Shown: positions 15,631 to 64,000 of the stretch, piece by piece
How the letters are laid out: each line of letters starts with the position of its first letter
How positions within the stretch are numbered: position 1 is the stretch's first letter
DNA from: Dromaius novaehollandiae
Lineage: Eukaryota > Chordata > Aves > Casuariiformes > Dromaiidae
Length of the DNA: 64,000 bases
Reading direction: 5' to 3'
Assembly (NCBI RefSeq): GCF_036370855.1
Contig: NC_088112.1
Location: 21,506,469 to 21,570,468, forward strand
The notes under the pieces: generated by a model
The model's input: only the letters and a program-made list of their open reading frames with translations
The model's database searches: none
Told to the model about the DNA's origin: nothing
Translations under genes and position numbers: made by a program

Positions 15631-18600
15631 CTAGGGAAAAAAAAGCGAAAATGAGTGATGAAGCGCGCACAGCGGGAGCAAAACATTTAATAGCTTTTAA
15701 CGGAAAAATATGCAAGGATTCCTCAAACGGTGAGTAAATAGATTAGTGTTTTGCTAAAATATTATTTTCTTTATTACAACTGTCCTATTTCTAAGCTATT
15801 GGTAGGGGAAATTCAATTGCATTACTTGCTGCTCCTGAAAATTGACACAGCTCAGAAGCATATAACCTTGAGGCAGACCTGCAGCATGCTCTTGCTGGTA
15901 TAATTTCTTTTTCCTGGATTTTTTTTTCTTTTTTTTTTAATCTCAACAAATTCCTTGCAAGCTTCCACCAGGCTGGTTGGAAAGCTCGGGAGGGAGGAAC
16001 GTACGAACTCCCCGATTCCCAGCTCGCACCTGACGTGGTGTCGACCTCGGCGTCCTGCTCCTTGTAGCCGTAGGTGCCGCAGGTGCTCTGCGAGCTGGGC
16101 TCGTTGGTGAGGTAGCCTTTCCCCCCGACGCTGGTCGTGTGCCACTCCGCCACCGGCTCCAGCAGCTGTAAGGGCACAAGGAGACCGTGGTAAAGGCCGA
16201 AATCGAGGGCAGGGGGGAGGAGAACGCTTTTTTTGGAGTAGAAGCATCCCTACCCCCAATGTGAATTCCCTACGGCCAACACGAGCTTAGCAATGGCAAA
16301 TACAGCAAAAAAAGGCTTGGTTTTGGCACAGGAATGGGCAAGGCTGGGTCTCCATGCGGGCACATCACAAAACCACGCTACGGTTCGCCCTGCAATCGCC
16401 AAAAGGCCAAAAACCAGAGCAAAAACCGGCAGCTCCTGCTTCCCGTGGGCCACGTTGTCTTCCTTTCGTCATAGGAAACTAACTCTAGTCCAGATTAAAA
16501 TTAAGCTGATGCAAAAGAGCCAGCGCACCTTCCAGGGAGGAAGCAGCCTATATATACACACATATATAATACATTTCTGGAGAGCAGAAGTCTCTGCAGA
16601 CTCTGATAGAGCCCCTTTGTTCCTAGCAGTGCCAAACAGCTTTTGCTTTCATAAAAATAGTAAATATTTCCGTGTATGGGGAGTCTCTAGTTCACGCCTG
16701 CAAAGGGGCCTGCCTGCATTTAATTTTTTCAAGCTTCCTCGTTAAATAGGCTCTTGGATTAGTAACTCCACGTTCAGCTTGTGCAGGATCATCAATGGAT
16801 CAGCTAACGACTCTTCTTCCCATCTCAGGGCCAACAGCAACCTTGACCAATTCCAGTCTCAACAGAAGGGCTAATTTTACCTTAAAAATCTCCGATTTCA
16901 TTTCGTCTTCATCTTCGTCTGTGACTGCTTCGTAAGTACATAGAAAAGGAGAAGGGACCAGGTAAGTCTTTTAACTTTTCTCACTAAGCTAGCGCTCACA
17001 CTTCTTATTTGCAGCCAGAACCCCCTTCACGTTGTCTTGTCGTGCACCACCGCTACCTTTTTCTATTTTTTTTTAAATAACTGCCCAGATTTATGAACGC
17101 CCGGTTGCTGGCGGGTGGGAGGAGGTTCGCTCGCCTCCGGGCATCGCCACAGCGGGGGCTGTCCCTGCGTCCCAGCGCGGCCCCCCCGGCACCGCTGCCT
17201 CCAGGCGCCCGGTCCCCCCTCCCTGCCGCAGCGCCGGGACCCCGGGAGGGAGCCTGCTCCCAGCGCGGGGCACGAGGCCTTTGCCCGGGCAGCAGTGGCT
17301 TCTGCAAGCCCTCGCTTCTGGGACCTGGTGGCTTTTCCCAGGCTGCTTTTCCTGCAAGGAAACTCCTCTTCCTCCAAACAGCCCAGGTTCGCTTCCACCC
17401 CGTCGCCTCGCCTGCTTCCAGCGGCCCGAAGAAAGACTAGGGGAGGGGGGGAAAAGCAGCACCAACCTTCCGAGGACGAGGCCAGGGGGGACACCTGGAA
17501 GGGGTAGAGGTCGTTGGTGCTGTCGGCCATGGCGATTTCCATGGGCGTCCTCCAGTCGGTCAGGGAGCAGCTCACCTCGCAGGGCGAGAGGTCTGCGGGC
17601 AGGCACCGGGGCGGGGGGTCAGCGCCGGCACGTCCCCCCGCCGCCCCCCTCGCGCCATCCTGCCGCAACGCTGCCGTCGCCCCAACGCTTCCCGCTCTGG
17701 TCAGCGAGCTCAAGCCGGAGTCTCACCCAAGGTGATGGACGCGCTCTCCCCCTCCGCTTCCTGGCCCGCGTAGCCGTGCACCGTGTAACCGCTGTGGTCG
17801 TCCGGTAGCGTAGCGCTGGCGAGTCTTTCTACCGACTCCTCCGTCCTCACGTCTTCGTACGACTACGAAAATAAGGGCGAAGCATGGGAGACTCGTCTAA
17901 GGCCGCGCAAGTTCCCATATGAAAAGAATTAAGCAAGAAAACCACCAAAACCTCGAGCTTCTTCAGCTGCTTCTACAAATTACGTACCTTTCTTTTGCTC
18001 TTGTTTCTTGCTTCTCTTGATGACTTTGACTTCCTCTCTGTTAAATAAAAACAAGACCGACGTGAGAAAGGGCTTCACGGCCAACGTTTTACGGGAGTCA
18101 TGAACCGCCGCAGCCCTGAGCGCGGTCTGCTCGGCCGCTTTGGCTGCGGGGCTCTGCACAAGTGCGTCCCGGTCGCTTCCCGAGGGTCCCTTCCAGGTAC
18201 GTTTTAGGAATTTGGGATAAAACGAGGTGTTTGTACAAACTGTTACCGCACACCTGCAAAGTGCCACTTTGCAACCCCAGGGACAGCGCGGCCGCCAGCA
18301 GCTCTGCTCGGCACTGGTGCAAGCGGGGCAGGAAACGGCAGCGGTGCGGGGGGTGCGGCAGCGGGGCCCCGCTCGCCCCGGCTGGCTTCCCCCGCGCTCA
18401 CCTTTCTTCTGATCCTTCGTCAGGGGCGGCAGCATTCGGTACACCCTGACGGCGCTGGAGCCCTTGTTGATGCTCTTGTCCTTCACTTCTTCGATGTCGG
18501 GCAGCGAGTTCATCGCGCAGCGGAAATTCGCCTTCCAGGTCTTGGGGTCAGGGTCCTTCTCACCTATCTTGTATCTTCCTGTAAATAAGAAACGGTGCGA

Positions 18601-19845
18601 ACGTTCAGACTTCTCATCGCAGTGGCAGGTCTTCCTGCAAAGAAGCAGCTCTACGTTGCTGCTCTTAAAAGTAAGTATGATTTCCTGAGCTGCAAATGCA
18701 GACACAATGAGCTCATCCATCCATCCGAGGGATGGAACCTTAAAGCCAGCCCGCACCTGTGTGAATGGCCCAGCTCCGGAAGAGGCAGGCATCCTTCTCC
18801 ATGTCCCAGCCGTGCTTAGCCGCGTGCTTCCAGGGGATCTGAAACATCATCTTATCCTGAAGTTGAACCAACAGAGTTTTGAGTTAAAAAAAGGAGATTC
18901 ACCACATGCCAATTTGTGCTGATGGATTTAATCAAGATACTCAGTGGCAGCACAGACGCTTTATAAACCCTCTGCCTCCATAGCTTCATTTAACACCCCT
19001 TTTGTCCCATCTCTTTTTCTTGGTGTACATAAGGTTTTCCAAGAGCTCTGGAATTGGGAAAGGCTTATGATTTGCAGCAGAAGTAGGAAATATTGTCAGT
19101 TTTATCTCAGAATCATTTGGCTATGTTGCCTCTCATCTATCAGTGTGTCAGAAACTACAGCAGGTTTTCCAGGTACGCTTTGGTGGAGGATCCCCTCCAA
19201 AGTTACCCAGAAGGACCCGCAGGCATCCTCAGAGAAACACGTCCTCGCTGAAATATCGCCTTCAGATGCAAAGAAAAACCTCAGAAAACGGCCCAGCTTC
19301 AGTGGGGCTAATGATGTCGCCCGCTGCACAGGTCCCAGGGCTGCGCCTTGCGGTACCACAGTGACACATGGCTTCTTTGAGGCCAGAGCTCACGGCTTAA
19401 TTAAGCAGTGCAGAGTGTAACACTAACCACTTAAATGGGACATAAGGCAACTTGGCTCAGTGGGGCCTCTGAGGTTAAAATAAGCCTTGGCGTTTTCTTG
19501 GTTCTCAACCCTGTTCAGACTGCTTTTGTTTAAATTTATCATTTCCCTCCTGGGGATTTCCAGGGGAAAAGATTGGAGCCGCTACATGCTGTAACCAATC
19601 AGAGCTACCTTTTCTGAAAACAAAAATACTTTTTTTTTTTAAACATAATGCATGCAAATTTTCTCCGTTTTCTTTTCCTCTGTGTGACCTTGCTTTATAT
19701 TTAGTGGCAGCTAAGAACGAGGATGGTTAAGGCTGCAGAAGCAATACTAAAACCTCACCTTGTTGATCCATATCAGCCCTGGTATTTGATTGGAATTAAT
19801 CTGCATCTCCAGCCAGGGCCTCATGCGCATTCGTGACACCGGCAT
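15530..19845 (-). CDS. IRF1: Interferon regulatory factor 1, complete coding span
   Basis: IRF1 is a nuclear transcription factor that binds interferon-stimulated response elements and drives interferon, antigen-presentation and antiviral genes. Coding exons on the minus strand are 19845-19759, 18856-18757, 18578-18402, 18037-17988, 17862-17727, 17592-17467, 16927-16881, 16165-16030 and 15630-15530. They sum to 960 nt: 319 residues plus stop, near the family length of about 315-325. Phases agree at every junction. The N-terminus holds the IRF DNA-binding domain with the five-tryptophan cluster W11, W26, W38, W46, W58 and the recognition-helix residues R82 and C83. A basic stretch at about 120-138 ([16 protein letters not shown]) is the nuclear localisation signal. 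The acidic run near 226-236 and the C-terminal half match the activation region. The start is the conserved [11 protein letters not shown]; a non-coding first exon lies upstream. It converges on no gene and points away from IL5. Confidence 0.97.
16030..16165 (-). CDS. IRF1: IRF1 exon 9
   Basis: 136 nt. Encodes [19 protein letters not shown] and [19 protein letters not shown], aligning with mammalian LLEQSEWQPTNVDGKGYLL. Acceptor TTACAG, donor TCAG|GTGCGA. Confidence 0.94.
16881..16927 (-). CDS. IRF1: IRF1 exon 8 with NAGNAG acceptor
   Basis: 47 nt, or 44 nt if the second AG of AAGCAG is used. Encodes (A)[15 protein letters not shown], an acidic patch equivalent to mammalian TTDEDEEGK. Both acceptors keep the frame and differ by one alanine codon. 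Donor AAG|GTAAAA. Confidence 0.88.
17467..17592 (-). CDS. IRF1: IRF1 exon 7
   Basis: 126 nt. Encodes [14 protein letters not shown] and [19 protein letters not shown], aligning with mammalian DSTSDLYNFQVSPMPSTSE. Donor GAAG|GTTGGT is a weak match to consensus, but phase and homology require it. Confidence 0.92.
17727..17862 (-). CDS. IRF1: IRF1 exon 6
   Basis: 136 nt. Encodes [14 protein letters not shown], then [13 protein letters not shown], which matches the family motif LPDDHSSYT, and ends ASITL. Acceptor CGTAG, donor TTGG|GTGAGA. Confidence 0.92.
17988..18037 (-). CDS. IRF1: IRF1 exon 5 (nuclear localisation signal)
   Basis: 50 nt, the length of the mammalian exon. Encodes [17 protein letters not shown], a lysine/arginine-rich bipartite-type signal. 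Acceptor AACAG, donor AAAG|GTACGT, ends in phase 0. Confidence 0.93.
18402..18578 (-). CDS. IRF1: IRF1 exon 4
   Basis: 177 nt. Encodes [19 protein letters not shown] and the rest of the recognition helix (R82, C83), ending at LTKDQKK. It completes the DNA-binding domain. Confidence 0.95.
18757..18856 (-). CDS. IRF1: IRF1 exon 3
   Basis: 100 nt, the length of the mammalian exon. Encodes [17 protein letters not shown] onward, with W38, H40, W46 and W58 of the DNA-binding domain. Donor ACAG|GTGCGG, leaving 1 nt. Confidence 0.95.
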
Positions 19846-20850: not shown

Positions 20851-21053
20851 ATCAGGCTGTTGTTGCACCAGCGGCGCGGGGGGGAGCGCCGCCCCCCCGC
20901 CGCTCGCCCCGCCCCCGCCGCTCGCCCCGCCCCCGCGGCGGCCGGCTCCCCTCTGCCCCCCCCCACCGGGGCCGCGGCTCGGACGGGCCCCCGCGGGGCT
21001 GCGTCTCGCGTGGGGGCTCCACGCGTGCCGCCGAGCGCCCCGCTGCCCAGGGG

Positions 21054-21795
21054 ATGCTCAGCCCCACGGCCCGTGGGGGTGCCGTGCCCCACGGCATGCT
21101 CAGCCCCATGGCCCACGAGGGTCCTGCGCCCCACGGGTTGCTCAGCCCCACAGTGCATGGGGGTCCTGCGCCCCACGGGATGCTCAGCCCCACTGCCCGT
21201 GGGGGTCCTGCGTCCCATGGCATTCTCAGCCCCATAGCACATGGGGGTCTCATGCCTGATGGGGCAGCTCAGCCCCATGGCCCATGAGGGTCCTGTGCTC
21301 CATGGCATGCTCAGCCCCACGGCGCATGGGCATCCTGTGCCCCATGGCATGCTCAGCCCCACAGCCCACAAGGGTCCTGCATCCCATGGGATTCTCAGCC
21401 CCACAGCCCATGGGGGCCCCACTGCCCATGGGATGCTGAGCCCCACAGCCCATGGGGGTCCTGTGCCCCACAGGATGCTCAGCCCCACAACCCATGGGGG
21501 TCTGCACCCCTTGGGATGCTCAGCCCCACAGCCCACAAGGGTCCTGCATCCTGTGGGATGCTCAGCCCCACAGCCCATGGGGGGTCCCATGCCCCACAGG
21601 ATGCTCAGCCCCATGGCCCATGGGGGGTCCCATTCCCGACAGGGCAGCTCAGCCCCATGGCCTGTGAAGGTCCCACGCCCCACAGGATGCTCAGCCCCAC
21701 GGCCCATGAGGGTCCCGTGCCCCTTGGCGCACTCAGCCCCATGGCCCACAAGGGCCCCACGCCCCAGGGGATGCTCAGCCCCACGTCCCACGTGT
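21054..21795 (+). repeat. 42-bp minisatellite upstream of IRF1
   Basis: About 17-18 diverged copies of a 42-bp unit, each starting near ATGCTCAGCCCCA and containing a GCCCAYGRGGGTCCTG-like middle. Unit starts fall at 21054, 21096, 21138, 21180 and so on to about 21769. Because 42 is a multiple of three, reading frames stay open: a 14-residue repeat appears in ORFs on both strands. I do not regard these as genes. The array begins about 200 bp upstream of the IRF1 GAS element. Confidence 0.93.
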
Positions 21796-31000: not shown

Positions 31001-31316
31001 CTGCCGTCTGGGTGGGCGGTGGGATGCTCGGAGGCCCCGGCAGCGGCTGCATCCCGGAGCACGGGGAGCTCCCGGCCGGCTCCGGCATCGCGCTGCCCGG
31101 AGCAGCGTTCGCAGCTAGACTGACTGGTTTCTTCCCCTTTTTTTCTAACTGTTAAAAGACGCAGAGAGAAACCAATACGCTCTTCTATGACCAGCCCCTT
31201 GGGTCTCCATGGACCATCTAATTCCACCCGTGCCCGGAGACTTGGCAGCGGCGAGACTCGCGCGAGCGCGGGAATGGCTTGGAGGACGTTTGTGGACGAA
31301 AGGGCAGCGAGGCGCA

Positions 31317-31322
31317 TTTATT
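31317..31322 (-). terminator. IL5: IL5 polyadenylation signal
   Basis: Plus TTTATT reads AATAAA on the minus strand, about 1.26 kb past the IL5 stop, where sequence changes from AT-rich to GC-rich. Use of this site is inferred. Confidence 0.5.
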
Positions 31323-32583
31323 CACCTTACCAAAAGCAGTAAAAACACAGAATAAATATTTTCTCCACAACACATATACCTGCAAAAGTAATATAACTTA
31401 ACTGGCAACATAAAAATAAATTCAGATCACTCCAAACACTATCAGGACCGTCATTTTTTTAGAAAAGAATATGAATTCTCCAAGCGGTGCATGCCCGCAT
31501 CCTCGCAGCTAGCAGTCACCAAATTCACACCGATCCTAACAAAGCCGTAGGTAGAGGAAAATCTCGGGATGTTTCTCGGGGCTTGTGAAACGTTTTGGGC
31601 TGAGTGCTAAGCACGCCGAATCCCATGGGCATGAGCGCAGTGTCGTACTCCTTGCTGTTAAGTGATATATAAGCAGCTAAGCTTATGCAAACCATAAAGG
31701 GTGAAATATTGTGTGAGTATAACTTTGCTGGTCATCCGGGTTTCAAAGCAGTGGCAAAGCCAGCTCTGTACTAAAAAATGTTGCTAATTATAATTATATT
31801 GATTAATTGTCGCCAGTGTCGGTGGATGTCGTAGTGGTGAGACTGCCGGTACAGCCAGTACCGGTTCCCTGAGCAAAATTAACTATTCCAGCAACATCAG
31901 TTGTGTACTGGTTTACTGGTCTATACAGGGATTTTTGCTCTTTTCAGCCTGTTTTTAAGAGAAATACCCGCATGTGGGCCCCGCTCCACTGAGACTGAGC
32001 AGCATCAGCGGATGTTTCTGGCGGAGACCTGACCCGCAACCCGAAAGGTTAGCGATTCCCAGCGCCGTCGCGCGAGGGCACGCGGCACCTTCCCGAGACC
32101 GTCCCTCCGCGACGATGGGCCTGAAAACACCAGCGAGGGAAACCCAGTCCTAGCAGATCTCCCTGCATCACGCGCTACTTAAGGCCGCGGCACGGTGCCG
32201 CGGGGAGATAACGAGGGCAGCGGCACCGCCCGCTCTTCTCGCTGCAGGCGTTCGCGCTCACTCCTGTTGTGACTGTTCTGCAACGAGCTGCAGCGCATCT
32301 AAGCTCGAGCTTCCCACGTCAGACTAAAAGGTTTTCTGAGTAGTCAGGTACTTGCATAATACTCCGGACTTTTTGCCTTTTCGAGCATTTAAACTTTCAT
32401 CCGAAAATGTGAGTGACATTTTGCCATCGATAACTTCAGAGATCGCATTCCCGGCGCGAGCGAATGCAGAGCCGCTGGAGCTGGAGACGTGTCCTTCTCG
32501 CTGTTAGCGCAAAGAGTACTTCTAAAACAAAAACGCATTTTACCGCTTGCTTAAATTTACAGCAATCCTAGAAACTAACAACT
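31323..32583 (-). other. IL5: IL5 3' untranslated region (inferred)
   Basis: AT-richer than the flanking intergenic DNA, with a few AUUUA pentamers on the sense strand (plus TAAAT near 31354 and 31415). A long 3' UTR is also typical of mammalian IL5 relative to its short coding region. The boundary rests on the AATAAA motif. Confidence 0.5.
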
Positions 32584-32676
32584 TCATGCTCTTCGGTTTT
32601 TCGATGACTTTCGGATGAACGTTTTCAGTTTTTCTATGAAATTTTTGGGGGTCTTTCTTTCTGTATCGCATTCCTC
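32584..32676 (-). CDS. IL5: IL5 exon 4 and stop
   Basis: 30 residues and TGA: EECDTERKTPKNFIEKLKTF, ending IRKSSKNRRA. It carries the second dimer cysteine and helix D, with a basic tail. Acceptor TTTTTCAG. Confidence 0.9.
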   Translation of the reverse strand, partial: EECDTERKTPKNFIEKLKTFIRKSSKNRRA

Positions 32677-34727
32677 CTGAAAAATTAACCAAGAAGATGA
32701 AATTGTTTAATATCTAACAATTATAGAGAGTTTTTTTTAATCTTGAAATCATCTTATAAATTTTCCTTAAAATATAAATAGGCTAATCATGTATATGGAT
32801 CCTTGTTTTAGAGATGAGTCAAACTGAAGACTAGAATAAGGGTAGAAATGTAAAGTAATACTAGGATTTCTTCTTGCATATACTAAACAAAACTGGTTCC
32901 CTTTTGTGCAGCAATAAGGGTTCAGTTGTGGGTTGTGCACCGCGTTTTAATAGATTGCCCTGCTGCATGATCTCTGCTAAAAGACACGATAGAAATGAAT
33001 TCCTACCTCTTTTCCTGGGCGTAGCGTGAGCGATTGCTTCAGTCTCTCAAATTTTTGGAAAAAAGCCCCAAATTTTTTCATATCCAGCTGATTTTTCAAC
33101 AGCTCCGTTCCTTCGAAGATTTTGTTCACGCAATTTGCATTCTAAGATGGAAGAAATAACAAAACTGAAATACAGGAATTTGTAACTGTGAACAACAACT
33201 AGTTCATTAAAAACTATCTCGATTTATATTCGACGAGCTGGGTGACGAATGCTGTCGCTGACTTGAGGACTCATTTGCAAACGATTCAGGCAGACGTGCT
33301 TAGTTTCTGTGCACATTTACTCTGCAGGCAGATGCCTGGAGATGGCAGTTTCTGCTAGCGTATGCTCTGCGATGCCCAGGCGAGCCTTGTAGTCACCTAC
33401 AAACTTAGCCCTAGCTCCTTTGTGGCCTTTTGAAGACCAATTTCATTTATTTGCTTGCATCAGCAGGTAACTGGTTCCTGGCTCCGGCGTGCCCGCGGGA
33501 GGCTGCCCGCCGTGGGAGCCGGAATCGCTGGATTTGTCCCCGAGACGTCACGAGGCTGCGTGCGGCTCCGTTAGGACACGTGAACGGCAGCCGTGCTCAC
33601 GCTGCATCCACGTTTCCAGGTAACGCACGGCAGAATAAAACCTTACTCGAGAGAGCGGGGTTATTAAAAAGCCAACCTGCAAATAAAATAGCCTCTCCAC
33701 GAAGAGTTAACGCAGCTCTCCTGAACTACCAGCGAACGCGAGAAATTCACGGGAGATGCAGAAGAGGATGGCGAGCCCGGAGAGAGGAGCTCAAGCTTTC
33801 CTTTGAGACAGATGTTGCTCCCAGATGTGTCGTGGTGTCTTATCCTCAGCTTGTGAAGGCTTTAAAACACCACCGTTCGGACAAAATGTGGTAACGCAAC
33901 TATTTGATCCTGTTGCTAATGCTAACGGTATGAAAATCCATTTCTGAAAGCAGACTGAGCGTTCTGGCATGGGAAAGCCCTTGTGCGAGCGGGGTGCAGA
34001 TGTGCAAGAAAAAATGTGAATGAGTTTCTCCTTCCCCTTTCACCTGCCCTTCGTGGGGAAGGTTGATTCACAAAATCGCTGGTGGCTGTGGGTGTGCTGA
34101 GCTGCAGAAAGGTTATAAAACCATAAACCAAGATTAATCACTATCCTTGGCTGCTCTTATGTCACAGCATGTCTTTGACTCACGTTTGAATGGTTTTAGT
34201 AACATTGAAATCATCTTATTATACCTTCCTCTAAAATGTAATTATTTGTATAGAAATCACAACGAAAGTGCAAAACTTTTATCTTCAATACAGAGTGAGT
34301 ACTGTGGGGAGATAACACTTCTAAGGCTATGTCTTAGTTTCAGATGACTAAATTTTTGAAGAAGTTAACTTTATTTAAAGAAAAAGTTTTACTTACATCT
34401 GTATGAAGTGGAGTCTCAATCCTCAGATTCTGAAAAATAATACATTAGTTAAGACTTTCGAATATATCCTTCACTAACTGTAATAAGAATATGATGCCAC
34501 ATTAATAGATTGTTGAACTTTTATTAAAAGCTGAATGTTCAGAGAACAGGATGGTTAAATATATCAGGTTTTAAATTAGAAAAGCGTAAACGTGAGCTTA
34601 CCTGCATGTCCGCTGTCACCGAGTCATAAATTCGTTCTAGCAGGGTGAGTAATTCGGCTGCGCTGCTGGTGTGGGGAGCAGCCCAGACGCCGGCAGCCAG
34701 CAAGATGAAACACAGATGCGTCTTCAT
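32584..34727 (-). CDS. IL5: Interleukin-5, complete coding span
   Basis: IL5 is a secreted homodimeric four-helix cytokine that supports eosinophils and B cells through IL5RA and the common beta chain in mammals. Exons on the minus strand are 34727-34602, 34429-34397, 33141-33007 and 32676-32584, all phase 0, giving 128 residues; mammalian IL5 has about 134. Exon 1 encodes a signal peptide (MKTHLCFILLAAGVWA) and helix A. Exon 2 is a 33-nt exon (NLRIETPLHTD), the size and sequence type of mammalian IL5 exon 2 (LRIPVPVHKNH). Exons 3 and 4 each carry one cysteine, NCVNKIF and EECDTER, matching the two cysteines that link the mammalian dimer. The long second intron (1,255 bp) also fits. No N-glycosylation sequon is present. 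I recall doubt about whether chicken IL5 is functional; here the frame is intact. Confidence 0.92.
33007..33141 (-). CDS. IL5: IL5 exon 3
   Basis: 135 nt, 45 residues: NANCVNKIFEGTELLKNQ, then KKFGAFFQKFERLKQ. It holds the first dimer cysteine and helices B and C. Acceptor CTTAG, donor GAG|GTAGGA. Confidence 0.9.
34397..34429 (-). CDS. IL5: IL5 exon 2 (33 nt)
   Basis: NLRIETPLHTD between acceptor TTTTTCAG and donor GAT|GTAAGT. The 33-nt length equals mammalian IL5 exon 2. It is too short to be found as an ORF. Confidence 0.9.
34602..34727 (-). CDS. IL5: IL5 exon 1
   Basis: 126 nt, 42 residues: signal peptide, then APHTSSAAELLTLLERIYDS of helix A, ending DMQ. Donor CAG|GTAAGC is near consensus. 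An in-frame upstream ATG (MQSRRGTRT) would spoil the signal peptide and lies in the 5' UTR. Confidence 0.92.
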
Positions 34728-34779
34728 TGTCCTGGTGCCTCGGCGACTCTGCAAGTGCTTCGGGACCGATCTCCTACCA

Positions 34780-34786
34780 TTTTATC
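34780..34786 (-). promoter_or_regulatory. IL5: TATA-like box of IL5
   Basis: Plus TTTTATC reads GATAAAA on the IL5 strand, about 55 nt upstream of the ATG, which allows a 5' UTR of roughly 25-30 nt. Further upstream the IL5 strand has TGGAAA and TTTCC motifs (34800-34890) of the kind bound by NFAT or ETS factors in cytokine promoters. Function is inferred. Confidence 0.5.
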
Positions 34787-34789
34787 AGC

Positions 34790-37700
34790 TCTCTAGAAGG
34801 AAATGATCAGTTTAGGGTGATTTTTGAAACTGATAAAAAAAACCGTGCCATTCAGTGAGACTTTCTGGAAGAGAAAGTTTCCAGTTAATTTTGTGTTTCA
34901 TGTTTGGGCATCCTCCTTACCCAATCAGCATTTCTGCAGAAGTAGGTAGCAAAGATGCGAGGATGTGGCCTTTTCCCTTTTAAAATCAGTAAAATGTGTG
35001 CTGGCCCGAGCCATGCCTGCGTCTCCACCGCTCTTCCGCAGAAAGCTGCTTCCCCGAGAGCTGCCTTCGGCCCCCTGAGGCAGGGAGAAAGGAGACTTGG
35101 GAGCAGGGAAAGAAAAAAAAGATCCCACGGGGGAAAAAATGTGAACTATTGCCTGGAAAGAAAAAGAGCAGCGTTTGTGCAATAGCCTGGCCAGATCTGA
35201 TCAAGCTGCAGGTCCGACGCGGGGAGGAGCCGGCGTCGGGCACCCAAGCTCGCTGACTTGCTCTTCCATCCTTTCTGCAAGCGTTTTCCCTCTTTTCCGC
35301 GGCGGCAGAGCGGCCGCTGCAGCCGGTGCCCGTGATCCCGTTGGTGCCTCAATGCTCCCCACGTCGGTGGTGGCCGCGGGGCTCAGCTGCGCCCGGCCAC
35401 CCGCCCCGGACGGGACCCACTCGGTTGTCTGCACATTGCGCTTTCCCACGACGCCGTTTCCGAGATCGGAAGCTTGCAGAAACGCGGCCGTCCCGCGAGG
35501 GCATCGGTCCGGGCTCGGCGGAGAGCACCCATGCACCGAGCTCCCGCGTCAGGTACCTGCGAATGCTTCCCCGCATTTTTGGCCCATGAAATTTTCGGCC
35601 AGAAAGCAGCGGCAGCAGCGGTTTGCAGGCATTGGCCTCCCAGAAGCTGGGCAAAGCCTCCGTCAGCCCGGGGCGGCCCCGGCTGCACCGTGCAGCCGCG
35701 CTCGGCTCGGACCCCTTTGACAACCCAGCTCCAGACTTGCTGCAGGGCTCCGGGGCTGGCCGGGAAATTTCCTTTCCTACGAACACAGCTGGCTGCCACG
35801 GGCCAAGCCGGACAACCCGGGATGCCCCGGACCCGGCTCGGCTCTACCGGGCTGGTGGGTCGGCCGTGCCCGACACGCTTTCTCCCTCAGCCCTCTCCTC
35901 TTCCTTTTTTTCCCACCTGCATCCGAGATTTCAGTCGCTTCTGCAGCGTCGTAGCACTGTCCTAGAACGTTATATGAACTAGGGGCTTTTTCCTTTTTCT
36001 TTATTTGTCTTGGCAAATTTTATTTAATCAGAAATTCCCAAGAACTCGCTTCGCAGTTCCCAAGAAGCATAGATAGGGATTTCTGTTACAAATGCCAAGC
36101 ATAAGGTGGTCTTTCATCAGGAACCTGGCTAGCTCCCAAAAAGCCAGGATTTGTTCTTCACCTTTGCACGATCGCTGGGTCTTTGTTAATTACTCCAAAT
36201 TAGTAAGGTTTGGTAATGCCATTTCATTTTTTTGCCTCTTCTGCTTGAGATAGCTTAAAACTGTTCAAGTGCTGGGTTTTTATCTTTAGGCAAGCTCAGT
36301 GTGCCTGCACAAACTGTAATCACATCTTCCAGCTTCAGAGTCCTTACTGGGCTGATGGCTTTTTCTTCATATGTGCGTGAAGGTGAAGGACCATGTAGGA
36401 ACAAAACGGGACAGCACTAGCAAGCAGAGATCCTCACCTTAGAGACGCTATGCGCAATGTTCATCTCTGTAGCTCTGCAGTGAGTCTGATTTGTGAGTGT
36501 GGACAGCGTGAAGGCACTGCAAGCACTAGCAGTGGTAGTGATAATAATAATAAAAAGCAAAGAAAATATTGCTGAGGAATCTTTGGAGGCTGGAGGAGAA
36601 AAGCAGGTGGCTGCTCTGTGAAAAACCTGTAAGAACTGAGCAAGTTAATTAGTTAAAGTCTGACGCTGGATTGTATTCACAAAGTCCTCGTGCGTCCCTG
36701 GAGGCTCGGACTGACGTGTTTAATCAGGCTGGCAGGGGAGGCAAAGCCGCCTGGGTTAGCAGAGGCCGGATCAGCCCCGCGTTGCTGTCCCTGTCCTCGA
36801 CCCGCGAGAGCCGGCACCTCAAACGCGGTCGCTCTGCCTCGGACGAGGTGGATACGCTGGACCAACGGTGAGGTTGCTCGAGCACTTCCATGGCTTTTTG
36901 CACCTCGGGGTGGCTCTGCTGCATGTCCTTGGGCAGGTCCCAGCACCAGCTCCGGCGGGAGCTGCTCAGCGCTTGTCGCTTGGCACCAAATACAGGGCAG
37001 AGCCGCTCGACTAACAGTGCCCCAAAACCCGCGCAGCAAACACCGCTGCAGTCCCCAGCGCAGGTAGACCTAAATCGACACGCAGGAGCTAACGAGCTGC
37101 TGCATGTTGCTGTCACCTTAGTGTCTTTTTGCTGGCATCATTAGCTCGAAGCTGCAGCTGTTTGCAGTAGCTGGTTTTGCTCATTCATCTAGATAAGCCT
37201 GAAGCTGCGATGCTCAGATAAGGCTTATTTACTGGCACACTGCGTTGGCGCAGCATGGAGGCCATGCGCTAACTTGTGCCTTTCTGGCTTAGCAGGCTCG
37301 AGCAAATGGAAACTCCTGAAAATCAGGAGACAGACTGCGATGACTTTCCTAGAAGAACTTTCCTCTGAAGACGGCAACGTCTGCGCGAGACCGTCAGCGC
37401 TCCTCCGCGCGGGCGCAGGTCGCAGCAAAAGTGGAGGAACTAGCTGGAGAAGCTCTGCAGAGTTGAGGTAAGGCTCTGGGGCGTTTCGGGGGGAGGAGGC
37501 CTCTGTGCACCCTCCTCCTCTCCCCTTTCGTGCCCCAGGTGAAAAGAGGGGGCAAAGGGCCCTTGCAGAGCAGGGCATCCCCGAGCGGCACCGCGTGCAG
37601 CGGCCGCGCTGGCCGGGGTCGGCACGCTCCGCCGAGGCCGGCAAAGGGATGCGGCGTGAAGCGACGTGGTAAAGGAACGTGGCAAACGGTGTCCTACAAC

Positions 37701-40700
37701 GGAGTGACGTTTGTGACCGACTTTGCGTCCTTTTCCTCCCTTCTGTGCACGGGCGGGCTAGAGGGACGCGTGGATCAGCGGCTTTGGAACTGCTCCTCAT
37801 CTCTTAAGTCCTCCTTAATAAATGGGCAACTTTTGACTAGTGTAATCTTGCACATCGGAACTGCATTTCATCAGTTAAATTCAATAGTAAATGTTGTATC
37901 ATTTGCTAAAGATAAGTGTTTCTTAGGAATTTCTTAAGTTGTTGCAATGTTTCACTTGATCTGCTGCTCTGGCAGATGCTGTGTGGCCCCATAGGGACTT
38001 CGGCAGCAGCCGGTGCCACATGTTTGGTCATACAAAAAATTGCAGCCCTGGTTTGTGGGAAAAACCCTCCTGGGTGGTTGTTCTGCACCCAGGACAGAAA
38101 CACGGTTCAGGACCAGAGAGGGCATCTCCTGCCTGGAGACCCGGCTTAATTCTCACAGAAGAGCGAGTGTCTCGGTGGGCCAAGAAGATTTCCAGAAATT
38201 GTTTATAGTTTCTATTACAATATAAATATGCTATTAGTGAATCATGGAAATGATCTGAAATGCTTTCTGCAATTGGTTGTGTTTAAATATTTTGCGTCAG
38301 GGGCCTACTTCAAAACGATGCAGCTGCAACCAGGTTCTCTCCTATCCTGGCAAGGTTTATGGCCCCAAGCTGGTCGTCATCTGAGGTCGCAGTGACTGTT
38401 TTACCTCTAGCTATCTTCCCGCCTCTTCCAGAGGGCAACAAAGAAAAGTGAGATGAACACAAAAAGCAGATCGCTAGCGGGACCCCGGAGTCCCTGCTCG
38501 GAAGGTGGTGGGACCCGGAGGATCCTTCCCTTGGCAGGTAGCGGATGAAGTTGCCCAGAGCAGCAACACCCCGGAGCACCGCTGCCCCAGCAAACTGCAC
38601 GGCTGCTTTTCCAAGAGTCAGTTCGAAGCCAGGAAAATTGAGAAATTTTGAAGAGACTGGTCTTGACCTAAGCAATAGGAAGCAAAATGCTTTCTTCGGA
38701 ACAGGCTGCTAGGAGGAATGTTGTTTACACTTCGGTCGTGGTCTGTGGGAGGGATCGTTTGCTGGAAACGACGTGTGAAATATCAGACTGGCTTTGCAGG
38801 GGAGAGTGGGCTGAACTCGGACCGGCGATCCGGAGACGGGACCTGCTGGACAGAGGTGCTGGGCAGTTCGGAATAGCTCCTCAGGGTACGTTGGGAGCAA
38901 TACACCGGTTTTACAGGGTTATTTTAAACCCCGTATTTAAGCCTTTCACCAAATACACCCCAAAAGAATAACGCACCTAAAGTGCAAGGCTTAACCAGGG
39001 CTTTCATTTCACAGCTACTCCCTTTCCTGTTATCCGCACAGAGCGATCCGCAGCGAGAAACGCCGGCTCTTGCTGGTCTCTGGTGGTGGTAAATGAATTA
39101 CACTGGTAGTTGGCCCTGTTGAAAGACAGAAAGCAGTGGCCGGCTGGCCCTGGCGGGTTTGTCCACGGTCCTTCCTTGCCTCCTCTTTAAGGCAAACCAG
39201 GGCAGGGGATGCACAGGTGGGAGAGGACAGCGGTGATGGGCAGGACACGGTTTCTGTCCAGCGCTGGATGATGCTGTTTTGGGGACCAAAAATGGAGTTT
39301 GGCCCACAAATGGAGTTGGTAGGAGCCTGAACACCTGTGACTATACAGCTCTTTCAGCTCGGAGGATTCAGTGTGTTTGTCTCTAGTTTGTTTGCTTTCT
39401 GTCATGGCTAAGGCGAGGGGCTGACTCTGAGTCCCCGCACGACGACCGTGCCCTGGGGAAGGGTGCTGGTGCGGTGGGCAGCGTTCTCCTCGCACAGCAG
39501 CTGCAGCTTTTGCCTGAGCATCTTGCAAACAAAAGCCTTGAGGCTTTCCTTAATCAAGTTTTTCTGAATACCGAAGCTTTTCCTATTCCCTCCCAGCAGT
39601 GTGCAGGGAGTGTCGAATGTAAATCTTAAATTTTGCACAAATCAGCTTCATAGACTCTCCTACAGCTTTTTAGTCCTGGGACTCCTAAAAATCTCATTCA
39701 TGTATTTTGATGGATCCGGTTTGAAATAGCACCTTTACTTTTTGTTCTAAAATGATTTTTCTGCAGGTCGGCCAGACCGAAAACAGCTAATACACAGTGC
39801 TGGCAACAGAGTCCCTCTTAGCACTGAAATCCCGTTTCTCCCACTTAACCAGGCAGGAGATTCCAAAATGTTCTAAAGGACCAGAAATTGTCTCTTATCC
39901 CAGCAGCAGTAATTTCTGAAGAGCAGATAGGTCGCATAAAATGAGAATTAAGTGCTCCAAGCACCGTTAGCTGCAGGGTCTAGTCTTCTGCTAACACAGA
40001 AAGAAGGTCTGGAGGTCTGAGAAGGGAAGGCTGGTTTCCCCAGGCTCCTCAAAAAGGGATTTCCAGAGACTCCAGCTTGCCGGCAGCCTTTTGCACGGGG
40101 CACCGTAACTGCGTGCTGTCTTCTCGGGAGTGTCCTATTCCAGCGAGAGCCGTCGTGAAAACAGAGTTCCACTATACAAAAATATTGTTATTTTTCATAT
40201 TTGGCCCCTTTTCAGGCCAGTGCCACCTGTAACAGCGAGAGGATGCTCCTGTGGGTAGGAGCTGAGTTGCATGGTTGCACGGTTGCATGAAAATCAGCGG
40301 TATCGGGGTGCTCTTTGGCTGTGAAGCTGCCTCGATTAGTTAGTCCCAGCGTGGTCTTTTAAGCAGTCAGTAGCATTAGTCTTGTCGCCTCGTGAGCTTT
40401 AGCCTGGCATTGGTGAGCAATATCGTCCCCACGTGTAGGTATATCCTACATTACAGCTTACACTTTGAAAATGTTTTAACATACTTTGGGAAGAAAGATG
40501 AGTTTTTAGCATGACCTATAATAATGGTTACAATCTCTCAATAATGTTTGGTTGAAAGGTTTGGGGTTTTTTTTTTATAGGATTATATGGTCTTTGCAAA
40601 CACTTTCTGTGGTAAAATGCTGGGTTTGATATTTTTCATTTTTGTGCAGAAAACTGAAATGAAGCATAAAATGGAAGCAAAAAATGAAGCTCTCCAGCGT

Positions 40701-41500
40701 TAGACGCTACATGCGGAAGCTGTTATTCAAGTACCTAATGCCCCTTCTCTGCTACAGGTCAGGTTTCCTGACTCATTGCATCTCCGAGGATGCACTGTCA
40801 TCTCTGCAATAGCTGAGTTAAAGGTCCTGGGATGAGTCACAGGAGCGCTGTTTAGAGAGATGCCCTTAAATGTTAAGCTGTTTCAAAATTAAATATTTCA
40901 ATATTTCCAATGGTTGCTGAATCTCTCGCAGTGACTAACGGTATAGACACTGAGCTGTGTGACTGGTCAATATTCTTGCGTTTCCTCTTTGCTTCTGTAT
41001 TTATTCCTTTCAGCTGAGGTTTGTAACTTCACAGTCTAATGGATTAAGCACTTTTACACTACGAATAACAATGTCTGATTTCATCCTCAATTTTCGCAGT
41101 CACCAAGGCGGGAATCACTTTGCCAAGCTGCCAGGACTTTGGAAGTCATCCTCAGCTCTCGGCCACCCTTTTGGTTCTCTACTTCTCATATTTTGGGTCT
41201 CTTTTACAATATCTTCCAAATGTACCTACCTGCTACATTCAGTTCCTTGGTCATAGTTTTGCTAAATTACTTATTCAAATGTTTTACTTCATAGGTGAGT
41301 TTCTACGACTTCCCCGAAATATGTCGATGGCAACGATGTTTGACTTAAAACTTGCATAGCGCCCAGATTAGGCAGTTCCTCAAACTGCTTTATGCCTCAA
41401 AAGCTAGATAGATGAGTTCACACCCACACAGAAGCCCTTTGCATTTAATAAACCTCATACGCTTCTGTTTATTAGCAAAAGTATCATTTTCCTCTCACAC
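34790..41500. other. Intergenic region between IL5 and the IL5-like gene
   Basis: No protein-coding exon chain is recognisable. The left half (to about 39 kb) is GC-rich; from about 40 kb the DNA becomes AT-rich and stays so to 50.9 kb. Short ORFs match nothing I know. No clear transposon was recognised here. Confidence 0.55.
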
Positions 41501-41526
41501 TTCAGATTCTAGAAGAATGAAGTATC

Positions 41527-41532
41527 TTTATT
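41527..41532 (-). terminator. Possible polyadenylation signal of the IL5-like gene
   Basis: Plus TTTATT reads AATAAA on the sense strand, about 0.87 kb past the stop, followed on that strand by a GU-containing stretch (AAGTGTGAG). Closer ATTAAA variants exist near 42062, so a shorter 3' UTR is possible. Confidence 0.4.
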
Positions 41533-41839
41533 TAGAAAAAATAAATCACAAATACACCTTTCACTTTACTAAAAAGTTACTTAATAATGGAAAGAAAACA
41601 AATCTAGCCTAAATTAGACATCATTTACTACTGTTTTTGTTTATATTGTTACAATTATCAGTAGTATATTTATATTGTAATAAGCCTTCAAAGACCTACA
41701 GAGTCTCATATTCGCCTGGCACTGTGTCAACAAACACACATTTTCCCCACTCTTTGCTCAAGAGTTTGAAAGTAGCTTGGGTTGAAAATAAATTTCAAGG
41801 TGGAGTAGTATTAAAATAAGTAGGTTCTGTTTTCATAAT

Positions 41840-42250
41840 AAATATATTAAATAAATAATGTTGATAATACTGATACACTGCACTACAGTTTTGTTACAGA
41901 ATTTCAGGAAAACACAGTGATTTCAAACTGAATGAAACACATATTTAAAAGTAAGCCTTTTCTCATTTTTTTTCTCCTGACTTCAGACAATAAAGACTGC
42001 CAATTTTGGAAATATTTGAGGTAGAACACATTTATGGATCTGCCTTCTAATCTATATATTTTTTAATTTCACTCACACAGTTTCATTTGGCTCTTAAAAG
42101 ACATACTAAATATTATATCACACAAAAATACAACAGTATTAATAATTTTAAATACTTCTTTCATTCACTATCACTTTGAACATTACAACTCCGTAAAATA
42201 TAAAAGCTCTCCATAAATTAAATAAATACATAAATACCCGTAGTAAGAAA
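41840..42250 (-). promoter_or_regulatory. AU-rich elements in the IL5-like 3' UTR
   Basis: At least eight AUUUA pentamers occur on the sense strand, including overlapping AUUUAUUUA at about 41848-41858 and 42215-42236. Clusters like these destabilise short-lived cytokine mRNAs. This supports a regulated cytokine message; the effect was not tested. Confidence 0.65.
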
Positions 42251-42395
42251 TAAAGCTATAAATATCCAATAAAATATCTAAAACATTCATGTTGAGGTTG
42301 CGCTGGCTCTTTGCGGAGTTCTCCGGGAGCTCTGCAGCGTGCTGTCAGAACGAGCTCTAGTGTTGCATAAGCCGCATGTCCAGCCGGAGGTGTTG

Positions 42396-42527
42396 CTAGT
42401 GTCCATCCTTGGCTGTTGGAGCACAGAAATTCGCTTCATTCAGCCTTTGAAAGAATATGTCGTAGTTGTACAGGGCAGTCTGAGGGTCCACTGTTCGCAC
42501 TTTGCAGGAACTGACTTCCTTAGGTCC
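42396..42527 (-). CDS. KK34: IL5-like gene exon 4 and stop
   Basis: 43 residues and TAG: GPKEVSSCKVRTVDPQTALY, then NYDIFFQRLNEANF and CAPTAKDGH. Acceptor TTATAG. Helix D is predicted near YNYDIFFQRLNE. Confidence 0.85.
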   Translation of the reverse strand, partial: GPKEVSSCKVRTVDPQTALYNYDIFFQRLNEANFCAPTAKDGH

Positions 42528-44817
42528 CTATAACAATAACAATAGATAACGATAATAATAAGGACAATAAGAAGAAGAATAAGAAGTGTGTATTGTTGCA
42601 GAGTATTGGCTGTTGTTCAAGGCAATATTTTAATGAGAAAGAAAGACAAATCTTCATGACTGAACTGAGAGAAGAAGACTTTTGAAGATCAGGAACATTT
42701 CTTCCTGACTTATTTTATAAGTTTCCTTAATAAGATGTGCTTAAGGCCATTTCTTATTTCTCTTTTGGCTAATGACAAATCCAGGATTTGTTTAAGGGTG
42801 ATACATCTTTTAGAAAACTGTGACTTCCATCCATACTCCATGAACTACAGGTAAGGTTTTTCTATAAAAGCATTGCTTAAAGGCAGCCGTAATGCTCAAC
42901 ACCACAAAATGAAGCGTGTCCAAAGATGGTATCAAAATTTTGTCATTGACTTTAGTGCACCAGGATGCTCAGAGCTGTTTGATTTCATATGTTTTGAAAA
43001 CATATGAGCCAGACTGGTCACAGTAATTTCAACTTTTTCCCTGTTTAATCACTATCAATAATGCATGAAAAACTTACTTTATATGTTTCAGTTATATTTC
43101 TTATTATGTGGGCCAAGTTTCCCTTCATCAGAGAAACACGTGTTATCATTTCGTTATCCTCAGAGCCTTTTTTTTTCCCCAGCTGTTCCATGGCACTATT
43201 AAGCTGATGATGAACACAGTTGCACTAAAAAAAAAGAATCAAACAACAGCAAAATTATATTCTGTCAAATGAGGTAAATTTTATCTCCCATTAAATTCAA
43301 TATCTAACTGTAGGCATAGCAAAACCAGAAATGATCTATTGTCTACTGTATTTATTTGTATATGATTAGGGAAGGGGGCACTTTTCTATTTTTTCTGGGA
43401 TTTTTTTGGTTTAAAAATCTACAAGAGGAGAGAAATGAACATGTTAAACAAGTCATTAAAAAGGACATACAAATCAACAATGGAGCAAGAGTTGCAAAGA
43501 GGAATCGAATCTGTCAGTGTTGCAGTTTTATAAATTGTAATGAGTATCCCAGGAAGATTAGATCTGCTAATTACCTTTCATGATGTTGACTTCTGATTTT
43601 ATTAACTTCGCTAACATCTTTGTGCGGAAGGACAGAAGCACCACACTCTTCTGTCTACAAAGTGCTGCTTTTCAACCTCTTTAAAATTGCAAACGCTTAA
43701 CAATTTTCCCCTACAAATAAGGCCTTCTGACGATAGGCTGCCTTTTCTTCGTTACTTTTCATGAGCATTTTACTTGTAGTTCGCAGAGCCTGAGGAATCT
43801 GCAGGCCACAGACTGAAAACCACTGATCTACAAGGCTTTATGTGACAACTTCTCATGCCTGCATGCTGTTTCTTTCAGTGACAAGCTCAATTACGTTTTA
43901 CAGTTCAAAAAAAAGTCAACAGAGCATACAGTTTGTAGATGTAACCTTAATTGTATTCATCTATTTACTGAGAGATAAGAACATTTCAGCACTGCCAGTA
44001 TTAGTTGTATTCACTGCCCTCTGCTCTAAATGAAAACAAAGTCACATTTAGGGATCTATGTAGCAGTCATATAGTAAGGATGCAAACAGTCTCAGCACTA
44101 AGCTCTCTATAAAAACTTAAGAAATTGACTTCCATAGGAATCAAACTAAGTCTCAAAGGCCCTGATCTCAAAATTTGCTATTTGTTTGCTTAACTTTATG
44201 CATACAAGGAATGTCACTGCATTTAACAGAACTGCCCATGCACATACAGTTAAGCATGTGCATTCAATTTTTGTGAGATTCAGTCTTCTTTGATAATCTA
44301 GCTCTCTCTTTCTCTTGCGATTTGTTACAAAGCAGCATCATTTTCCAAATGACTAATAGCAACAGTAGTAAAGAGCCTTTAAAAATCTTACCTTAAAATG
44401 GCCTTTTGGTACTTGAAGAAAGATCTAAAATTTAAAAAACAAGATAGCGTTAGAAGACACTTCTAAATGACTGCCACATTGTTAAGCATCTCTAACTACG
44501 TATCGTCTTCATCGGGTTTTCTATTTCTGAACTTCCTTTGGGGAAACAATTGCAGCGCCAGCTTCAGCAGAGAGGTTGTCACACAGTGCCTTCAGCATCT
44601 CAGATTCAACAAACAGAAAACAGGAGACATAAACCACAGCTGAAACTAGCCCATACTCGATTTTATTCTTCCATCACAAGAACTATAGAAAAATGAGGGT
44701 ACCCACCTCACTGTTTAGCTTCACGAAAGCCTTGAGGTTCGCTTTAAATTCTTCTATGGCATCGCCCATGGAGGCAGACAGACAGCAACTCAACAAGAAG
44801 AAGTAGAGTAGCAGCAT
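42396..44817 (-). CDS. KK34: IL5-like cytokine (probable KK34 orthologue), complete coding span
   Basis: A secreted short four-helix cytokine related to IL5. Exons on the minus strand are 44817-44707, 44424-44392, 43224-43078 and 42527-42396, all phase 0, giving 140 residues. Exon 1 encodes a signal peptide (MLLLYFFLLSCCLSASMG) and helix A. Exon 2 is again exactly 33 nt (IFLQVPKGHFK), comparable to IL5 exon 2. Exon 3 begins CNCVHHQL and holds an NIT glycosylation sequon. Exon 4 has SSCKVRT and an extra cysteine (NFCAP). The exon plan, phases, long second intron (1,167 bp) and a cysteine in exons 3 and 4 match IL5, its neighbour on the same strand, so the pair looks like a tandem duplication. 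Naming it KK34, an IL5-like transcript described in chicken, rests on location and gene structure, not on an alignment. Its receptor and role are unknown to me. Confidence 0.82.
43078..43224 (-). CDS. KK34: IL5-like gene exon 3
   Basis: 147 nt, 49 residues: CNCVHHQLNSAMEQL, then GNLAHIIRNITETYK with the sequon NIT. A run of nine A encodes KKK and could slip. Acceptor TTTTTAG, donor AAA|GTAAGT. Confidence 0.85.
44392..44424 (-). CDS. KK34: IL5-like gene exon 2 (33 nt)
   Basis: IFLQVPKGHFK between acceptor ATTTTAG and donor AAG|GTAAGA, phase 0 on both sides. Same length and phase as IL5 exon 2. Confidence 0.85.
44707..44817 (-). CDS. KK34: IL5-like gene exon 1
   Basis: 111 nt, 37 residues: signal peptide, then DAIEEFKANLKAFVKLNSE. 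Donor GAG|GTGGGT. An ORF extends upstream in frame to another ATG, but that crosses the TATA box, so the inner ATG is chosen. Confidence 0.87.
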
Positions 44818-50889: not shown

Positions 50890-52240
50890 TTTCCGTGCAG
50901 ATTTGAAGGAAAGTCCGCTCCCCGGCGTTCAGCCCAAGCGGGGCAATCCCGCGATCGCTGCGACGGGTGGTCGCACCTCGTCCATCGCCCCACCGGGCCG
51001 GGAGCGCCGGTGGCGGAAGCGGGGCCGCCGGCACCCTGGGTTTCCCGCCGAGGCCTGCGCGCCGTTACCGGGTGGCCTCACGCCCCAGACCTAAAAAACC
51101 ATTTCCTGGCTCTGGCGGGTCACTGCGAGAGAGGCACACGCCACGCTCGCGCTGCCACCGGCGCCACGGCCAACCGCCGCTCGCCCACAGCCCCGAAAAC
51201 TCCCTGCTGGAAACGCTTGTGGCAGGCACGATTACTAAGAACGCGATCAGCAGCAGCCATCGCACGGCCAGGAGAGGCCGGTGATGCCCCGTGCCACCTC
51301 CTCGCATGCAGCCTGCGGGACGGTGCCCGTGGGGAGGGCGAGCGGGCGCCACCGAGGCCTGCGGCGGGTCTCCTCAGCCCCGGCGCTGTGGGGGAGGCAG
51401 GTCGGCCATTACGCGACCCACCGCCGCGGGGGGAGGCAGGTCGGCCATTACGTGCCCCGCTGTCCCCTCGCGGCCTGTGGCGCGGGGACGATGTCGGCAC
51501 CACCTTGGTGACAGTGCCCGAAGCTAAGGGACGCCGAGTGGCAGCAGAAGGGCTAAAATACACAATGGAAAATAATCACTTCGGTTTTTTATTCAAAAAC
51601 AGGTTGTTTTGTTCTTAAAACTGCCGAAGAAGCATCAGCAGCTCCTCCGCGCGCACCTGCGCAGCAGGGCCGCCCTCCTCGCCGCCTCACGCAGCGCCAC
51701 GGGCGGCGCTGGCGGGGCGGGGCGGGGCGGCGGGCGCGGGGGCTGCCGGGAGGCGCGGGCCGCGGCGGTGCGGAGCCGAGGTGACGGGGTCCGCGGTGGG
51801 GGGGTGGCGGCGGCGGCGGGCTCGGGGGGCGCCGCTACGGCTCTCCGCGCCGGGCGAAGGGCCTCCCCGCGGCCGCTCGGTGCCGCTCCGTGGAAAATGT
51901 CCACCCCCGCCGCAGCGCGGGGCTCTTCGGGGGAAACTCCCGCTGCCCACCTCTGCGGCGGCGGCGGGCTTTCTCCAGGAAGTGCCCCCCCCCCGCCGCC
52001 TCCGCGGCCGGGACCGCCGGGCCTCCCCTCGGCGGCGGCCCTGCCGCGGCCCCGACGGGAGCGGGAGAGCCCCGGGGGAGTACCGGGGGGAGCGGGAGAG
52101 CCCCGGGGGGAAAGGAGAGCCCTGAGAAACGCTTGCCAGCGCGGAGCTGCTCGCTGGGCACGGTGTCCTGCCGCCGGCCCTGAGGGGGAAAGGTGTCCGT
52201 CCTGCGGGGAGGGGGACCGGTGACGGGGAGTGGGGCGGGA
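50890..52240. promoter_or_regulatory. RAD50: CpG island, probable RAD50 promoter
   Basis: A CpG-dense block sits in AT-rich surroundings 1-2.3 kb upstream of the RAD50 start codon. It has an array of GC boxes (GGGGCGGGGC type) at about 51711-51733 and no TATA box, as expected of a housekeeping repair gene. A donor-like GAG|GTGACG at 51780/51781 could end a non-coding first exon joined to the acceptor at 53199. ORFs inside the island are composition artefacts. Confidence 0.65.
51391..51452 (+). repeat. 23-bp direct repeat in the RAD50 CpG island
   Basis: GGGGAGGCAGGTCGGCCATT plus ACG occurs identically at 51391-51413 and 51430-51452, 39 bp apart. Confidence 0.9.
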
Positions 52241-52395
52241 GACGGGGACTGGTGTGGGAGATGGGGACCGGTGTGGGAGACAGAGAGTGGTGCGGGTGAT
52301 GGGGACCGGTGTGGGTGATGGGGACCGGTGCAGGTGGCAGGGACTGGTGCAGGTGATAAGAACCAGCGTGGGAGATGGGGACCGGTGCAGGCAAT
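52205..52395 (+). repeat. 18-bp minisatellite 5' of RAD50
   Basis: About ten diverged copies of an 18-bp unit like GGGGACCGGTGTGGGAGA, immediately 3' of the CpG island and inside the presumed first intron. The frame stays open because 18 is a multiple of three. Confidence 0.88.

Positions 52396-53254: not shown

Positions 53255-64000
<10,746 letters not shown>

Follow-up and report, generated by a model that had tools for sequence, protein, structure and literature searches.

What are the two small genes that lie head to tail between IRF1 and RAD50 in Dromaius novaehollandiae, and does a bird carry here only IL5 or IL5 together with a relative? The question is raised by a stretch of 64,000 nucleotides (assembly GCF_036370855.1, contig NC_088112.1, positions 21,506,469 to 21,570,468 of the forward strand), hereafter the window, in whose own numbering all positions below are given. 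Judged by its sequence, the gene nearer IRF1 (gene A, 34727-32584, minus strand, four coding exons) is IL5. Its neighbour (gene B, 44817-42396, minus strand, four coding exons) is very probably the orthologue of KK34, an ancient paralogue belonging to the IL-3/IL-5/GM-CSF (beta-common) family, and the window would then be an avian-type T2 cytokine locus with the order IRF1(-), IL5(-), KK34(-), RAD50(+). Such a pair is most likely already known and ordinary for a bird, having been published for the chicken T2 cluster. Its interest lies in clean gene models for a fast-diverging cytokine that Pfam misses, and in an intact bird IL5 coding sequence, relevant to the question of a functional IL-5/eosinophil axis in birds.

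The identity of gene A is carried by several independent comparisons. Its spliced protein matches the Pfam family IL5 (PF02025) with 41.2 bits (cut-off 24, E 2.3e-10) over positions 9-102 of the 112 in the profile, and a sequence search of the PDB returns 3b5k at E 3.6e-8, as well as all six IL-5 sequences that human IL5 itself retrieves, each at E 3.4e-5 or lower. The alignment with human IL5 reaches a z-score of 11.7, a score attained by none of 1000 shuffled sequences, compared with 3.6 for GM-CSF, 3.1 for IL-4, 1.5 for IL-3 and 0.0 for IL-13. Gene A is located between IRF1 and RAD50, with gene B intervening on the RAD50 side.

The exons of gene A, all on the minus strand, resemble those of IL5 in sequence, in the two cysteines of the mature protein and in the second exon. 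Exon 1 (34602..34727, 126 nt) encodes the presumed signal peptide, including C6, and helix A, the Pfam match covering residues 23-119 of the spliced protein. Exon 2 (34397..34429, 33 nt) encodes NLRIETPLHTD, the counterpart of TLRIPVPVHKN in human IL5, exon 3 (33007..33141, 135 nt) contains C57, and exon 4 (32584..32676, 93 nt with the stop codon) contains C101; both mature cysteines align with those of IL5. Furthermore, primers for chicken IL-5 (AJ621252.1) are given in the available portions of PMC3004833 and PMC7019883, and the forward one matches exon 3 at 33111 in 20 of 23 bases, the next-best site in the window reaching 15. The reverse primer speaks against this assignment: it finds no good site in gene A (13/23 at best on the spliced sequence), and its best site in the window, with 17/23, is far from the gene. 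The 13/23 site spans the exon 3-4 junction, close to the end expected for the 111-bp chicken product.

Gene B is built in the same way. Exon 1 (44707..44817, 111 nt), with TATATATATA about 60 bases upstream of its ATG, encodes the presumed signal peptide, and is followed on the minus strand by exon 2 (44392..44424, 33 nt, IFLQVPKGHFK), exon 3 (43078..43224, 147 nt), which starts with C-N-C (C49 and C51) and includes the single N-glycosylation sequon, at N91, and exon 4 (42396..42527, 132 nt with the stop codon), with C105 and C132; two further cysteines, C11 and C12, are situated in the presumed signal peptide. The signal-peptide cleavage sites of both genes were assumed, not predicted. All six introns are GT-AG (172, 1255 and 330 bp in gene A; 282, 1167 and 550 bp in gene B), every exon is in phase 0, and 7,668 bases separate the two coding sequences.

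Once rebuilt from the minus strand, the two genes bear out most of a preliminary description made from the letters of the window, which had proposed a tandem pair of IL5 and an IL5-like cytokine with a single exon plan on one strand (four phase-0 exons, a 33-nt second exon, and a long second intron of 1,255 and 1,167 bp, respectively). The first-listed gene, nearer IRF1, is the one that the Pfam match, the PDB sequence matches and the chicken primer point to as IL5. The very low sequence identity which had been expected was also found, since no alignment score of one gene with the other exceeds that of shuffled sequence. The cysteine pattern had been described, for both genes, as a single residue at the beginning of each of exons 3 and 4; this holds for gene A (C57 and C101) and fails for gene B, whose mature protein has four.

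In order to judge the exon plan against chance, both strands of the window were scanned for splice chains under strict rules: a hydrophobic signal after the start codon, a 33-nt second exon, phase 0, a long second intron, a cysteine close to the beginning of both exon 3 and exon 4, and splice sites of acceptable quality. Nine chains were found, all on the minus strand and at two loci only, those of genes A and B, with none on the plus strand, and the top chain at each locus was the exact gene model (splice scores of 53.4 and 52.7 bits). The same rules gave no chain on either strand of 20 Markov-resampled windows. When the second exon was allowed to range from 24 to 72 nt and the second intron from 100 to 2,500, and the cysteine rule was dropped, the minus strand gave 20 chains and the plus strand 66, with top scores outside genes A and B of 34.8 and 26.8, respectively. 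As the thresholds were chosen after both genes were known, and the splice-site frequencies were general background values, the scan backs the gene models and yields no clean probability. Both genes look real, and the plan that they share is more than chance. No third intact cytokine copy was seen among the tblastn matches listed for the two proteins against the window, and blastn between the 5-kb regions of genes A and B on the same strand gave seven matches of 12 to 24 bases, with E of at least 0.26.

Gene B is tied to the cytokine family by its gene plan, by its place between IL5 and RAD50, and by the presumed 3' untranslated region (UTR). The latter (42066..42395, minus strand) holds a cluster of AU-rich elements, with seven ATTTA motifs in 330 nt, against a null mean of 0.83 and a count of seven in none of 5000 resamples, and an ATTAAA begins 329 bases past the stop codon. 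AU elements of this kind occur in unstable cytokine mRNA. With gene A, gene B shares the 33-nt second exon, the phases and the long second intron; it departs from interleukin-5 in its cysteine count, which is four, and shows no significant similarity to it in sequence. GM-CSF (CSF2) offers another likeness, to the four mature cysteines of gene B, of which one is close to the beginning of exon 4 and another close to the C-terminus. The CSF2 gene has the same phase-0 plan of four exons, with a second exon of 42 nt.

The literature provides the name. Avery et al. (2004), in their title, place in the chicken T2 cluster an IL-5 gene, which appears to be a pseudogene, together with KK34. KK34 is introduced in an excerpt of PMC8964181, citing Koskela (2004), as a transcript resembling IL-5 in the gamma-delta T cells of birds, and single-cell RNA sequencing places it in gamma-delta T cells of the chicken according to passages of PMC10826067 and PMC13063687. 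In the accessible part of PMC6412223 it is counted as the fourth beta-common cytokine. According to its title, Yamaguchi et al. (2016) reports KK34 in many mammals, and in human and mouse it is described in print as a pseudogene; the preliminary statement that mammals have only IL5 at this place is thus contradicted in print. In the excerpts of PMC6306437, PMC10357484, PMC4913284 and PMC7416321, KK34 figures in reference lists only, and no KK34 primers were seen in the literature passages, which had been chosen by other terms and are no proof of absence.

Gene B, like KK34, is an IL-5-like gene that accompanies IL5 in a T2 cluster, and the two presumably agree in location and exon plan; the likeness is drawn from these two features. 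What points to KK34 as the identity of gene B is its IL5-like plan beside IL5 in the T2 cluster. An old duplication of IL5 and gene B is plausible on the grounds of gene plan, place and literature, and not of any detectable sequence similarity.

Several observations weigh against the identification of gene B as KK34. It was reached from place and gene plan and not from a KK34 sequence, and the position between IL5 and RAD50 is one that KK34 is presumed to have. Neither Pfam (no family at E up to 10) nor the PDB (three rows at E up to 10, all of one hydrolase, best E 0.95) recognises the protein. Among human IL5, GM-CSF, IL-3, IL-4 and IL-13, none shows a convincing similarity over shuffled sequences: the best full-length match, IL5, has a z-score of 2.19, is equalled by 43 of 1000 shuffles and is not collinear, followed by 1.34 for IL-4 and 0.68 for IL-13, and the score with GM-CSF is reached by 98 of 1000 shuffles, which is not significant. 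A C-terminal piece of gene B scores best against human IL-4, although 329 of 5000 shuffles do equally well. AlphaFold2 gives gene B four helices with a mean predicted local distance difference test score (pLDDT) of 41 for the whole protein and 39 without the presumed signal peptide, a confidence too low for these models, which cover gene B only, to be informative. Finally, the excerpt of PMC8964181 assigns that study's own KK34-positive cells to a Th2-like cluster and not to gamma-delta T cells.

Nor do direct comparisons of the two genes, or a fold search with gene B, add support. At full length, the global score of A against B is reached by 203 of 1000 shuffles and the local score by 544, the corresponding figures for the mature proteins being 375 and 503, and MAFFT misaligned the two mature proteins. 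Foldseek with the gene B model lacking the signal peptide returned no match at E <= 0.001, and no cytokine is among the 18 that it gave at E up to 10.

Of the alternatives, the most probable leaves the pair of IL5 and KK34 as it is and is compatible with it, supposing that IL5 is decaying, as has been reported for chicken IL-5; we regard this as possible though rather unlikely. In its favour is the region downstream of gene A, where the first 330 nt past the stop codon contain one ATTTA (null mean 0.44) and where, in 31284-32583, there is no AU-rich cluster, unlike gene B, and no AATAAA or ATTAAA until 1,262 nt. Decay may lie behind this, but so may a 3' UTR of great length or a signal of non-canonical type; IL5 could be served by an additional exon or by a poly(A) signal outside the canonical forms, such as the AGTAAA at 667 downstream of the gene. 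Against decay, the open reading frame and all the splice sites of IL5 are intact, and their summed splice strength equals that of gene B. Print is itself in conflict on chicken IL-5, its expression being given as absent in a passage of PMC8640176, whereas an excerpt of PMC3004833 has the mRNA measured by quantitative PCR.

An extension of the same idea, which we hold to be less likely again, is that the two paralogues are exchanging roles: the AU-rich, tightly regulated mRNA would stay with KK34, along with a build of four cysteines that may be monomeric, and IL5 would have an intact coding sequence without a cytokine-type 3' end, as a step towards a chicken-like pseudogene.

The remaining alternatives deny that gene B is KK34. 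It would be very improbable, in our estimation, for gene B to be a cytokine of the IL-4/IL-13 type that was duplicated onto this side of RAD50. IL-4 and IL-13 do map beyond RAD50, on its other side, the mature protein has four cysteines instead of two, and the C-terminal match mentioned above is to IL-4. However, the second exon is of 33 nt, as in gene A, and those of IL-4 and IL-13 are of 48 and 54 nt, and at full length both cytokines score below IL5, none of the three convincingly. The least credible view, that gene B is a new cytokine peculiar to its lineage and not a KK34 orthologue, could appeal to the lack of a detectable sequence relationship to anything tested (Pfam, PDB and human cytokines), but such cytokines usually diverge fast and an IL-5-like gene has already been published in the chicken T2 cluster.

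With gene B taken as KK34, its product would be a secreted T-cell cytokine (of gamma-delta T cells in the chicken) acting on a receptor with the common beta chain. The IL5 encoded by gene A would act on IL5RA and the common beta chain as a disulphide-linked dimer, joined through C57 and C101. The extra pair of cysteines in gene B suggests two internal bridges of the kind seen in GM-CSF or IL-4, which would be C51-C105 and C49-C132, and the protein may be monomeric.

The genes that frame the pair were recognised from some of their coding exons. On one side, exons for the N-terminal DNA-binding domain of IRF1 lie at approximately 18429..19845 on the minus strand, with two pieces matching Pfam IRF (E 1.3e-9 and 2.8e-14); that this is IRF1 rather than another IRF is our assumption from characteristic motifs and the neighbouring genes. 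On the other side, the first two coding exons of RAD50 are found at approximately 53255..53879 on the plus strand, with a match to Pfam AAA_23 (E 1.1e-17) and motifs characteristic of this protein.

Some minor features accompany these genes. Upstream of IL5 (34728-34820), TGATCATTTCCT and CTGATAA are located within 90 bases of the ATG, and are presumably akin to the CLE0 and GATA elements of the mammalian IL5 and CSF2 promoters. A tandem array with a 42-bp unit (17.7 copies, 21046-21790) lies in a very GC-rich stretch, some 1.2 kb ahead of the start codon of IRF1, and is crossed on both strands by long open reading frames that the repeat seems to have produced by chance. A tandem repeat of 19/38/57 bp occupies 52206-52391, upstream of the start codon of RAD50 by some 0.9 kb.

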